DNA of 64,000 bases from an uncultured Desulfovibrio sp. (GTDB lineage: Bacteria; Desulfobacterota; Desulfovibrionia; Desulfovibrionales; Desulfovibrionaceae): assembly GCA_913063155.1 (NCBI GenBank), contig CAJXYU010000004.1, positions 1 to 64,000 on the forward strand. The letters are read 5' to 3'. The first letter of the stretch is position 1; every line of letters begins with the position of its first letter. Under the pieces are notes generated by a model, which was not told where the DNA came from, did no database searches, and saw nothing but the letters and a program-made list of their open reading frames with translations. A program made the translations under genes and the position numbers. Shown here in pieces: positions 50,032 through 52,933 of the stretch.

Positions 50032-50205
50032 GTCATCTCCAGACGGTTTTATGCACCATGCTGTTAGCAATATATTTGCCACTTTCATAACGTACTATAT
50101 TTAAATGACTTTTTATCAGTCGAAGCCATCGTGAAATTCATTGGGACAAAAAACCGTCACCGCCGGGGAATTGACTCGGTGAAGTTGACAGGGCACAAGT
50201 CCTCC

Positions 50206-50826
50206 ATGACTGCGCAAACACGGAAAATATACGAAACGCTCAAGCCGCTGGTTCTTGCTTCCGGCTCTCCCAGACGAAGGGAACTCCTTGGGTCGGTGGG
50301 ACTGGATTTCACGGTACGCCCCAGCAAGGCGGATGAACCAGCTCCCGAGGCGGGAGAACAGCCCGAGGCCTATGCCATGCGCATGGCGCGCATCAAGGCT
50401 CTGGACATAGCCGGTCAGCACCCGAAAAGTGTGACGCTCGGTTCGGACACCATTGTGGTACTCGGTGCGGAAATCATGGGAAAACCAGTCTCAGAAGAAG
50501 ACGCCCTGCGCATGCTTTCCGCTCTCTCCGGTAAAACTCACCAAGTCATCACCGGCTGCTGTCTGATCATGCCCGGGGAAAAAAAACCGCTCAGCTTCAG
50601 CGTAAGCACGGATGTGGTCATGCGGGAATCCCTGGTGCGGGAACTCAGAAACTACATCACCACGGGCGAGCCCATGGACAAGGCCGGGGCCTACGCCATC
50701 CAGGGAGTCGGCAGCTTCATGGTCAAAGCGATTTCCGGTTCGTACACCAACGTCGTCGGCTTGCCCCTGGCCCGGATTCTGGAAGTGTTAATGAAATGGG
50801 GTGTTATCGTTCCAAGAGAAGACTAA
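50206..50826 (+). CDS. maf: Maf family nucleoside triphosphate pyrophosphatase
   Basis: A 206-residue house-cleaning pyrophosphatase that hydrolyses non-canonical nucleotides or dTTP/UTP. 'LVLASGSPRRRELLGSVGLDF' is the N-terminal motif. 'SDTIVVLG' and 'GKPVSEEDALRML' follow, and 'YAIQGVGSFMVKAISGSYTNVVGLPL' ends the protein. The ATG at 50206 gives the normal length; a GTG at 50131 would add 25 residues without a ribosome site. The last 26 codons are inside a 79-bp direct repeat that recurs downstream. The gene is intact and appears to have been rebuilt by site-specific integration at its 3' end. Confidence 0.9.
   Translation: MTAQTRKIYETLKPLVLASGSPRRRELLGSVGLDFTVRPSKADEPAPEAGEQPEAYAMRMARIKALDIAGQHPKSVTLGSDTIVVLGAEIMGKPVSEEDALRMLSALSGKTHQVITGCCLIMPGEKKPLSFSVSTDVVMRESLVRELRNYITTGEPMDKAGAYAIQGVGSFMVKAISGSYTNVVGLPLARILEVLMKWGVIVPRED
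50748..50826 (+). repeat. maf 3'-end repeat, copy 1 (in the functional gene)
   Basis: The 79-bp segment from the CAACGTCGTC of maf to its TAA stop is identical to 52022-52100. It is the putative attachment core. Confidence 0.95.
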
Positions 50827-50867
50827 AAAAGATACATTCGGGGTGTTTTCATAGGCTGCTTGAGGCA

Positions 50868-50890
50868 AAGTCCCCACTTAGTTCCCACAC
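50868..50890 (+). promoter_or_regulatory. Putative integrase arm-type site, left of unit 1
   Basis: AAGTCCCCAC and TTCCCACAC, separated by 4 nt, begin 41 bp after copy 1. The same two words recur adjacent at 51939-51957 and, diverged, at 52712-52730. Confidence 0.5.
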
Positions 50891-50928
50891 AGAATGGACA
50901 TGAGCGTTCGGCTAAAAGAGTTCTGAAA

Positions 50929-51927
50929 ATGGCGATCAAAAGACAACGTGATGTTGAAGCTGAGAAAATTCACAAAGCAAACAGAGCTGCTGCCGTTGGA
51001 AGGTTGATGCTTGGTAAAGTTTCAAGCTGGGATGAATTTCTTTCCGTAGAAACAATTGGCTACTCCAGCTTGCCCAGAAAACAATTAAAATCTGGGGTTA
51101 AAGATATCCAGAGCAGGCTGTCACAGGAAATAGTAAAGTTCTGTCGAAGCAACTTTGAGAATATGAACGTTGATAGGCTGTCCATGCTGTTTGAGGATAT
51201 TAAGGCTTATAGAGGTCTTGAAATCACCTGTGAAGAATTTGAGCGGAAATATTCAAGAATTCGAAGCCATGTTCTCAATGGCTTGCCAGCACACTCTACA
51301 ATCGTCTTCTGCCTGGATGGAATGAAGTTCAAGTTTCCTGAAGACTACCTAGCCAAGGATCTTCAGTGTTCTCTTGAGGGCCTAATGTCGCCCCAAGGTG
51401 ACAAAGAAAAAGCTATCGAAGATATAAGGTTTGAAGAGTTTTACTTTCGATCCTCTGTGATCACCTCGTTTAATCTTCTCGAGGCATACCTCAATGGTAT
51501 CTCTTGGGATTTTCTTTTCAATACACCCCCTGAAAACTTGAGCAACAAAAGGCGAAAGCTACTCGAAGGATTTCAGGGAGTATCAACCCGAGAAAAACTG
51601 AAGAAGTATCCTGCAATTATTGCAGGAAGTGAACTTTTTGGTGAAGAGGATTCAGATGTTGTGGCGCTTCTTGATATAATGAAGCCATTTAGAGATGCGT
51701 TGGTACATCCTTCGCCGTTTACCATGTCTGAAAAGTTCGGGGGGCATAACAAAGCAGAGCTGTTTTATCGGGTGAACAGTGACACGGCACTTCTTGTCGC
51801 TCACCTGACCTGCAAAATTATCAAGCGCATCAACTCACACATCGGTTCGGACGCGAGACCTGTATGGTTAGCTGAGCTGGACGACTACTTGGATGATTTA
51901 GAAAAAACCAATGTGGAACAGGTGTAG
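50929..51927 (+). CDS. HEPN-motif accessory protein (possible ribonuclease toxin or defence gene)
   Basis: I do not recognise a named family with certainty. The 332-residue product carries RDALVH at residues 255-260, the R-x4-H motif of HEPN ribonucleases, preceded by an acidic patch. Its C-terminal helices resemble HEPN folds found in toxin-antitoxin and abortive-infection proteins. The N-terminal half is unassigned. No signal peptide or membrane segment is seen. The DNA is clearly AT-richer than its neighbours, which points to recent transfer. The start ATG at 50929 lies 10 nt after AAGAG. The gene is the only one between maf repeat copies 1 and 2, so it is the cargo of a small integrated unit. 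Confidence 0.6.
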   Translation: MAIKRQRDVEAEKIHKANRAAAVGRLMLGKVSSWDEFLSVETIGYSSLPRKQLKSGVKDIQSRLSQEIVKFCRSNFENMNVDRLSMLFEDIKAYRGLEITCEEFERKYSRIRSHVLNGLPAHSTIVFCLDGMKFKFPEDYLAKDLQCSLEGLMSPQGDKEKAIEDIRFEEFYFRSSVITSFNLLEAYLNGISWDFLFNTPPENLSNKRRKLLEGFQGVSTREKLKKYPAIIAGSELFGEEDSDVVALLDIMKPFRDALVHPSPFTMSEKFGGHNKAELFYRVNSDTALLVAHLTCKIIKRINSHIGSDARPVWLAELDDYLDDLEKTNVEQV

Positions 51928-51938
51928 GTGCCATGCTG

Positions 51939-51957
51939 CTCCCACACAAGTCCCCAC
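51939..51957 (+). promoter_or_regulatory. Putative integrase arm-type site, right of unit 1
   Basis: CTCCCACACAAGTCCCCAC begins 12 bp after the HEPN-protein stop and ends exactly 64 bp before repeat copy 2. Confidence 0.55.
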
Positions 51958-52021
51958 TTTATGGTGCCGGTAGGCGTAAACTTCAAATTAATACAGCAAG
52001 ATATGCATTTACCATTCTGAT

Positions 52022-52100
52022 CAACGTCGTCGGCTTGCCCCTGGCCCGGATTCTGGAAGTGTTAATGAAATGGGGTGTTATCGTTCCAAGAGAAGACTAA
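52022..52100 (+). repeat. maf 3'-end repeat, copy 2
   Basis: Identical to copy 1 over 79 bp, including the maf stop codon, but not preceded by any maf coding sequence. The region 51928-52231 holds only this copy, the arm-type site and an inverted repeat. Confidence 0.95.
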
Positions 52101-52133
52101 CAGACTTTCACTCAGGGTATTTAGTCCAATAGC

Positions 52134-52188
52134 GATGCTGGATTGACCAGTGTTATTACCCGAAAGCCCCTGGTCCGAATCCAGCATC
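52134..52188. other. Long imperfect palindrome after copy 2
   Basis: Arms GATGCTGGATT and AATCCAGCATC are exact complements. Inside them GACCAG pairs with CTGGTC, with a 2-nt bulge and a 20-nt loop. No T-run follows on either strand, so it is not an ordinary terminator. Confidence 0.6.
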
Positions 52189-52231
52189 ACAACCAAATGA
52201 TTACAATGTGTTAGAAGTAATTCTTAAGTCC

Positions 52232-52540
52232 CTAACTGAAAATTTTATCCCCGCTGGCATTATTAAATCCTGGATGAATATCAAAACGCACCACCCCGAC
52301 CGGGACATCCACTGCGGCAGCGATTTGTGCTGTTCCAACCGCCCCGAACCCTCCGCATAGCTCGATAGCTGAAATATTCTCGTTTTCCACAAGTTCGCGT
52401 GCCAAAGACTCGGCCTGGGCATAATCACTCACGGCTACAGCCAGCAACTCTACTGCTTCAGTACGGACCCAACTTCTGTGTTCTTTCGGATTGGCATTAG
52501 GCGCCACAAAAATAAATGCGGCTTTAAGTACATCACTCAT
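52232..52540 (-). CDS. Small DUF6506-like protein
   Basis: A 102-residue protein resembling the DUF6506 family, whose function is not known. The family features are the N-terminal 'KAAFIFVAPNANPKEHRS', 'AIELCGGFGAVGTAQIAAAV' in the middle, and 'VPVGVVRFDIHPG' near the end. It is the only gene between repeat copies 2 and 3. AAGGA lies 6 nt before the ATG. It has no apparent partner here. The stretch 52541-52933 upstream of it holds only an arm-type site and repeat copy 3. Confidence 0.6.
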   Translation of the reverse strand: MSDVLKAAFIFVAPNANPKEHRSWVRTEAVELLAVAVSDYAQAESLARELVENENISAIELCGGFGAVGTAQIAAAVDVPVGVVRFDIHPGFNNASGDKIFS

Positions 52541-52711
52541 TTGCTTTCCTTATCTGGATGTTGTTGGTTAACGGAAACGCCCATCCTTTCCGACATGGGC
52601 CAAAGAGTTACGCCGTCTTGCGGGCTCACCCCAGATAGTGCCTCTTGTTTCGGGCGCACCTGATATATCTCCGACGGGCTCCCGCCGTCAAAGTCATAGT
52701 AAGAGTGGAAA

Positions 52712-52730
52712 CTCCCACACGGGCCCCCAC
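52712..52730 (+). promoter_or_regulatory. Putative arm-type site, diverged, before copy 3
   Basis: CTCCCACACGGGCCCCCAC differs from the 51939 site at 3 of 19 positions and also ends exactly 64 bp before its repeat copy. The 64 bp between show little similarity. Confidence 0.5.
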
Positions 52731-52794
52731 GGGGCTACACCCGGCAAAGCAAATCATCAATGACGACAAAGTGTTACAGCCTCATCAAACAGAT

Positions 52795-52852
52795 CAACGT
52801 CGTCGACTTGCCCCCGGCCAGGATTCTGGAAGTGTTAATGAAATGGGGTGTT
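52795..52852 (+). repeat. maf 3'-end repeat, copy 3 (diverged, truncated)
   Basis: Matches the first 58 bp of the 79-bp repeat with 3 mismatches and lacks the last 21 bp with the stop codon. It looks like the oldest copy. Confidence 0.9.
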
Positions 52853-52933
52853 GTGGGTCCATCATGAGGCTGATTTCTCCCGACAAGCCTTCCCCACCGA
52901 AAAGTGACCCACTGGAAAGCTTCATGCATTGCA

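Follow-up and report, generated by a model that had tools for sequence, protein, structure and literature searches.

The maf Locus and Its Repeats

The window, a stretch of 64,000 nucleotides from the genome of an uncultured Desulfovibrio sp., contains the gene maf (50200–50826, plus strand; Pfam Maf, 7.8e-60), whose last 79 bp are the first of three copies of a repeat. Copy 1 (50748–50826, plus strand) is the in-frame 3' end of maf, with a boundary placed as in the copies of relatives, and would be the core on the attL side of an inserted unit (unit 1). Copy 2 (52022–52100, plus strand), the putative core on the attR side of the same unit, is identical to copy 1 over all 79 bp, from CAACGTCG through the stop codon, and the two diverge directly past it. 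Copy 3 (52795–52861, plus strand), at the far side of a second unit (unit 2), is a decayed maf 3' end with 91% identity over 67 bp. Given the perfect maf 3' end in copy 2 and the decay of copy 3, unit 1 was probably the later insertion; unit 2 is probably older than unit 1, and copy 3 is probably the oldest of the three copies.

Unit 1 measures 1,274 bp from start to start and carries a single gene (50929–51927, plus strand), which encodes a protein of 332 aa from its ATG, with an alternative TTG start possible at 50860. R-x4-H is a sequence that marks HEPN domains. The cargo protein has it at residue 255 and matches HEPN_RiboL-PSP below the cut-off (E 0.03–0.04); it is accordingly described here as HEPN-like. 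This protein (P0002) had no match among plasmids, a PADLOC search gave no match, and its predicted structure, which was made without an alignment, is uninformative (mean pLDDT 37.7). The gene in unit 2 (52232–52540, minus strand) belongs to DUF6506 (Pfam, 1.7e-32).

The C-Rich Motif and Its Spacing

An earlier note on this DNA had claimed that a 19-bp C-rich motif lies exactly 64 bp ahead of copies 2 and 3, and both gaps were again measured as 64 bp. The first motif, CTCCCACACAAGTCCCCAC, occupies 51939–51957 (plus strand), and copy 2 starts at 52022; the second, CTCCCACACGGGCCCCCAC, ends where the note had placed it (52712–52730, plus strand), agrees with the first at 16 of 19 positions, as stated there, and precedes copy 3, which starts at 52795. 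The same words, in the reversed order that the note had described just after copy 1, were found at 50870–50888 (plus strand) as GTCCCCACTTAGTTCCCAC. They form the pair GTCCCCAC-N4-TTCCCAC, 43 bp downstream of the maf stop codon, and this is a putative arm pair on the attL side of unit 1. The sites ahead of copies 2 and 3 are putative attR-side arm pairs of units 1 and 2, respectively. No left arm pair was seen after copy 2, that is, in unit 2.

The window contains two matches to the 19-mer at up to 3 mismatches, compared with a mean of 0.03 in 100 shuffled sequences. In the whole genome (4.3 Mb) there are three such matches, two of which are the pair in the window, while the third is on another contig and has 3 mismatches; the reversed pattern, as a control, has one match in the whole genome. 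The motif is therefore rare here, in answer to a frequency check that the note had proposed, and these counts rule out that it is a common word of this genome. Across 199 genomes of the family, the exact 18-mer TCCCACANNNGTYCCCAC has 8 matches and the reversed pattern 5, so that the word alone is hardly enriched. Four of the eight precede a maf-type core (G000, G058, G205, and G048), and the remaining four have no maf-type core within 110 bp. The unusual feature of the motif is its placement, and the argument that follows is one of place and not of frequency. No tRNA genes were found near other matches of the motif (six of six loci).

The maf 3' End in Related Genomes

Regions downstream of maf were compared at 100 loci, including that of the window; several of them end at contig ends. 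The first 20 were selected by a match of their maf end to window DNA and are consequently enriched in hits, the next 20 came from further members of the genus, and the last 60 were taken from a list of genomes ordered by similarity. One region (L056) was dropped, as it contained no maf. Copies were sought with each locus's own maf end, independently of the motif, and 29 further maf-end copies were found in 19 of the 100 loci, with the window's two included; the two copies of one pair (L044) are only 8 bp apart and are perhaps one copy counted twice. A scan of genome contigs with Maf gave 27 distant loci, which are left out of these counts. In seven members of the genus, no more than about 150 bp separate the maf match from pgpA (near-empty sites), and no more than about 160 bp do so in a relative at the level of the order (L053); the maf-pgpA distance ranges from about 0.7 to 8 kb in the remaining loci with pgpA found.

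In 12 arm-bearing loci, which were chosen by eye, the final 60 bp of maf have a lower GC content, measured against the remainder of the gene, than they do in the 88 others (p = 1e-4). Lower GC at this end would be expected if an inserting element supplies those 60 bp.

In a class-wide scan, 5 of 348 genomes contained GATCAACGTNGTNGGNNTGCC, at six places in all, and it also occurs in 11 viral contigs. One of the 11 also contains the motif (L215) and has the same sequence as G037:C31. The extended motif had no match in viral contigs, and the Maf C-terminus had 6 weak matches among phage records.

In two loci, L039 (G061) and L147 (G255), maf-end copies extend to about 130 bp before the stop, rather than 78. 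Both start at the same position of maf, and perhaps stem from a further group of elements that cut maf elsewhere.

Recurring Distances on Both Sides of the Core

Among the 27 copies outside the window, 12 are preceded by the motif (a match at 12 or more of 15 positions, with its end 40–80 bp upstream), compared with a null rate of 0.0015, and 15 are not. The window, G002, and G058 supplied the consensus used; when the loci of G002 and G058 are also dropped, the motif precedes 10 of 23 copies. The distances fall mainly into two classes. In the longer, the motif lies 62–64 bp from the copy (L037, 62; L090, 63; L121 and L141, 64; and, among copies recorded by genome, G057 and G065, 63; G048 and G037, 64), and in the shorter 51–54 bp (L038, 53; L128, 54; L129, 51; L144, 53, 52, and 53; L147, 52). 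One gap of 71 bp (L150) is outside both. The spacing on which the earlier note relied thus recurs in homologous loci, either as 62–64 bp or about 11 bp shorter. As about 11 bp is approximately one turn of DNA, the separation of the two classes suggests a conserved phase, although the shorter class could instead reflect an integrase that ends earlier (with PTFVPT or PTQLPT directly before its stop).

The mirrored pair GTYCCCAC-N4-TTCCCAC follows the maf stop in 9 of the 100 loci, starting at +33 bp in seven of them and at +43 bp in L121 and the window, compared with 6 of 4955 random windows. It is present in 4 of the 11 loci whose copies are preceded by the motif, in 1 of 8 whose copies are without the motif, and in 4 of 81 without any copy found; none of the seven near-empty maf-pgpA sites has it. 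Because the loci share descent, null rates are not strict probabilities. Short repeated sites thus keep a set phase to either side of the core, at 51–54 or 62–64 bp on one side and at 33 or 43 bp on the other.

The Integrase

In one relative (L215/G037), a copy of the maf end is followed by the remnant of an integrase tail (PF00589, 1e-5, just below the cut-off), the last codons of which are a form of the motif. A search with this remnant gave matches, most of them weak, in 18 of 199 genomes (E ≤ 1e-5) and led to G057, which has an open tyrosine integrase of 352 aa (PF00589, 3.9e-19) ending in PTKVPTKLRLVG at its stop. The last codons of the G057 gene contain TCCCACCAAAGTTCCCAC, and a maf-type core lies 63 bp further. 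The same layout is found in G065 with a broken relative of this integrase. The maf of G057 has the mirrored left pair at +33; it is on a different contig from the element, so that the two ends are unjoined in the assembly. The G057 integrase also has a weak match to Arm-DNA-bind_4 (E 0.045, below the cut-off). Among the nine proteins upstream of it, a PLD-like nuclease domain was the one family to reach the cut-off, and none of the nine matched a phage structural family; the far end of the element is outside the contig. A shorter second gene of the phage integrase family lies about 0.5 kb upstream of the integrase (L250, G057:C62).

Relatives of the G057 integrase at E ≤ 1e-20 are present in 156 of 348 genomes and, among the matches listed, are mostly 30–40% identical. 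The note had advised looking for a distant integrase: an intact one thus exists in a relative, and no cognate one was found in the window's own genome at E ≤ 1e-20. Among 84 integrase loci scanned by pattern, a maf-like end was found only at that of G057 (that of G065 was seen by eye), and at the end of the integrase next in similarity (G066, 49%) there is no motif and no maf core. Results from a regular expression written to find integrases next to maf are left out, as it detected 1 of 5 integrase loci of the window's genome. The G057 integrase has 2 weak relatives in viral contigs and matches in 46 phage records, with an identity of at most 26.6% among the 12 listed; the integrase tail fragment matched only its own source contig among viral contigs.

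According to its reading frame, the motif at 51939–51957 would also be a fossil of C-terminal integrase codons (PTQVPT), and most motif-bearing copies likewise read PTxxPT in the integrase frame. That the motif is a coding fossil of an integrase tail, as this frame indicates, had no place in the earlier note's account. It could accordingly be argued that the motif is nothing but such a fossil (PTQVPTQLRLVK and a stop), decaying and with no role in binding, and that its spacing descends from one ancestral distance between integrase and attachment site. The shared frame fits such a view, as do the stops that several copies have at the integrase end and the whole and broken integrases that end at the motif. 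However, the same words stand mirrored outside the integrase gene, +33 or +43 from the maf stop, and the CCCAC words are kept where the codons that follow have decayed, including in both copies of the window. The gap classes, about one turn apart, also point to phase, although an earlier-ending integrase could account for the shorter. A motif that is fossil alone is therefore improbable.

It is still less probable, to the point of being very unlikely, that the end of maf was copied by ordinary duplication or illegitimate recombination, with motif and spacing coincidental. The 15 motif-less copies outside the window and the copies that reach to about -130 in maf (L039 and L147) could be read in this way, but the cargo between copies of one core differs among genomes, the motif is far above its null rate at set distances, and an integrase gene ends at the site; it is the integrase-bearing relative that makes duplication so unlikely.

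Cargo and Possible Movement Between Genomes

In relatives, the genes between maf and a copy of its end encode an Mrr-type restriction nuclease (L142), ParD/ParE (L129), GFA (L037 and also L140), a RelA/SpoT-domain protein (L140), a DUF2867 protein (L128), a hexapeptide transferase (L090), and a SnoaL-like protein (L147), and the cargo of L215 is a DUF3800 protein. Of ten cargo proteins tested, two were assigned to no family. The GFA genes of G002 and G223, which belong to different genera, are 91.2% identical over 410 bp, whereas maf of the same two genomes aligns over just 152 bp, at 76%. At L140 (G223), a 424-aa RelA/SpoT-domain protein is encoded at 899–2229, right behind a maf with the left arm pair; it could be a toxic nucleotide synthetase.

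There is close to an even chance, if slightly below it, that unit 1 is a dead remnant, correct in its anatomy and the result of an old insertion that is now immobile. The window's genome yielded no cognate integrase at E ≤ 1e-20, unit 2 has no left pair, and copy 3 is decayed. On the other hand, unit 1 retains both arm pairs and two identical cores, and a 91% identical cassette gene occupies the same type of site in two genera. This possibility concerns only whether the unit moves today, and does not conflict with the interpretation given below. A bolder proposal, which we put forward tentatively and rate as somewhat doubtful, is that of a family-wide cassette system, in which minimal integrase-less units with a full attachment site of two arm pairs would move between genera in trans through the integrases of passing maf-targeted islands, stacking defence-like and toxin-antitoxin genes and renewing the maf 3' end.

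A Probable Family of Integrative Elements at maf

The region 50748–52100 very probably belongs to a family of maf-targeted integrative elements, as an integrase-less derivative unit stacked on an older one. The repeat is the maf end; taken together with its copies in relatives, the gaps ahead of them, the mirrored pair, and the G057 integrase, this makes the motif most likely a pair of arm-type sites lying in the terminal 3' part of an ancestral integrase gene. The earlier note had proposed arm sites from the window alone, and the relatives bear it out with the same core, motif pairs on both sides, distance shifts of about one turn, near-empty sites, and an integrase ending in the motif. They likewise support its reading of 50748–52100 as an attL-cargo-attR unit, which is itself without an integrase. 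Several results speak against the proposed family: 15 of the 27 copies outside the window are motif-less, the left pair occurs at just 4 of the 11 loci with a motif ahead of their copies, a search of the window's genome at E ≤ 1e-20 gave no cognate integrase, the pattern scan of 84 integrase loci gave a maf-like end for G057 alone, the G066 integrase has neither feature, and the G057 element and maf lie on separate contigs.

In the proposed mechanism, site-specific integrative elements would insert at the 3' end of maf through a tyrosine integrase acting at the left border of the 79-bp block, or close to it (GATCAACGTNGTNGG in mobile copies). The inserting element would bring a new maf 3' end, and maf would thereby remain whole. 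Two pairs of YCCCAC-type sites are predicted to serve as the arms of the attachment site and to be bound there, one on the attL side, 33 or 43 bp past the maf stop, and one on the attR side, about 53 or 64 bp ahead of the core. In the autonomous form, the attR-side pair would lie within the final codons of an integrase gene abutting attR, and the presence of arm sites in the integrase's own tail would explain why a usable-looking site is left after loss of the integrase. In the window, that gene would have been lost except for its tail, and the unit with the HEPN-like gene stacked on the older DUF6506 unit. Such units would presumably be excised and mobilised when another element supplies a related integrase.

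Relation to Known Elements

In attachment sites of the lambda attP type, a core is accompanied by arm-type sites at set distances on both sides. The maf site likewise combines a core with putative arm sites on both sides, a likeness of layout only. Integron gene cassettes are also small, are stacked at one site, and in some cases carry toxin-antitoxin genes. They differ from the units at maf, in which the core is 79 bp of protein-coding sequence. Unit 1 has the end of the target gene as direct repeats at both borders, as site-specific elements have, and no tyrosine integrase of its own. With the integrase absent from the unit and not found in the genome at E ≤ 1e-20, the unit is classed as a derivative rather than an autonomous element.

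A close parallel is with CIMEs (cis-mobilizable elements), which have lost their integration genes, retain attL and attR, and accrete in tandem at the end of a target gene (PMC5704250). The units in the window resemble these, being without integration genes, with att sites kept, and stacked behind a target gene. Unit 1 is flanked on both sides by cores and arm pairs, and with integration and transfer genes gone it consists of the HEPN-like gene and integrase tail codons. The maf units differ in being very small, often of one gene, in their target, in arm pairs recognisable on both sides, and in a parent element that is not known to have transfer genes. By its sequence, unit 1 thus fits a CIME-like derivative of a site-specific island, which is a known kind of element.

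Islands of the SGI1 type provide a second parallel. SGI1 is found at the 3' end of trmE and related islands at yicC and dusA (PMC8409611), so that there too the end of a protein gene is the target of a tyrosine integrase. These islands differ from those at maf in target gene, integrase, and bacteria, and most maf units are without an integrase. No reports of maf as an integration target were found in a literature search whose coverage excluded most subscription papers, and in one paper (PMC12884075) the passages with 'maf' refer to the program MAFFT only; one paper listed (PMC6425879) contains both 'septum formation protein Maf' and 'integrase'. The analysis thus provides a concrete putative attachment site at a target gene for which no report was found, and marks the 3' end of maf in this bacterial family as a place to seek small genes of an accessory or defence-like kind.

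Further sites were noted in passing. Arrays of three or four maf-end copies, with ParDE-type genes between them, are present in L129 (G215) and L144 (G205). On a contig of G037 other than that with maf (L222/G037:C31, at about 40.8–42.2 kb, and also L215), two maf-type cores and the motif occur together with an integrase tail and a DUF3800 gene. The site ends a bacteriophage region, and its neighbours resemble, by eye, a Dnd-type system.
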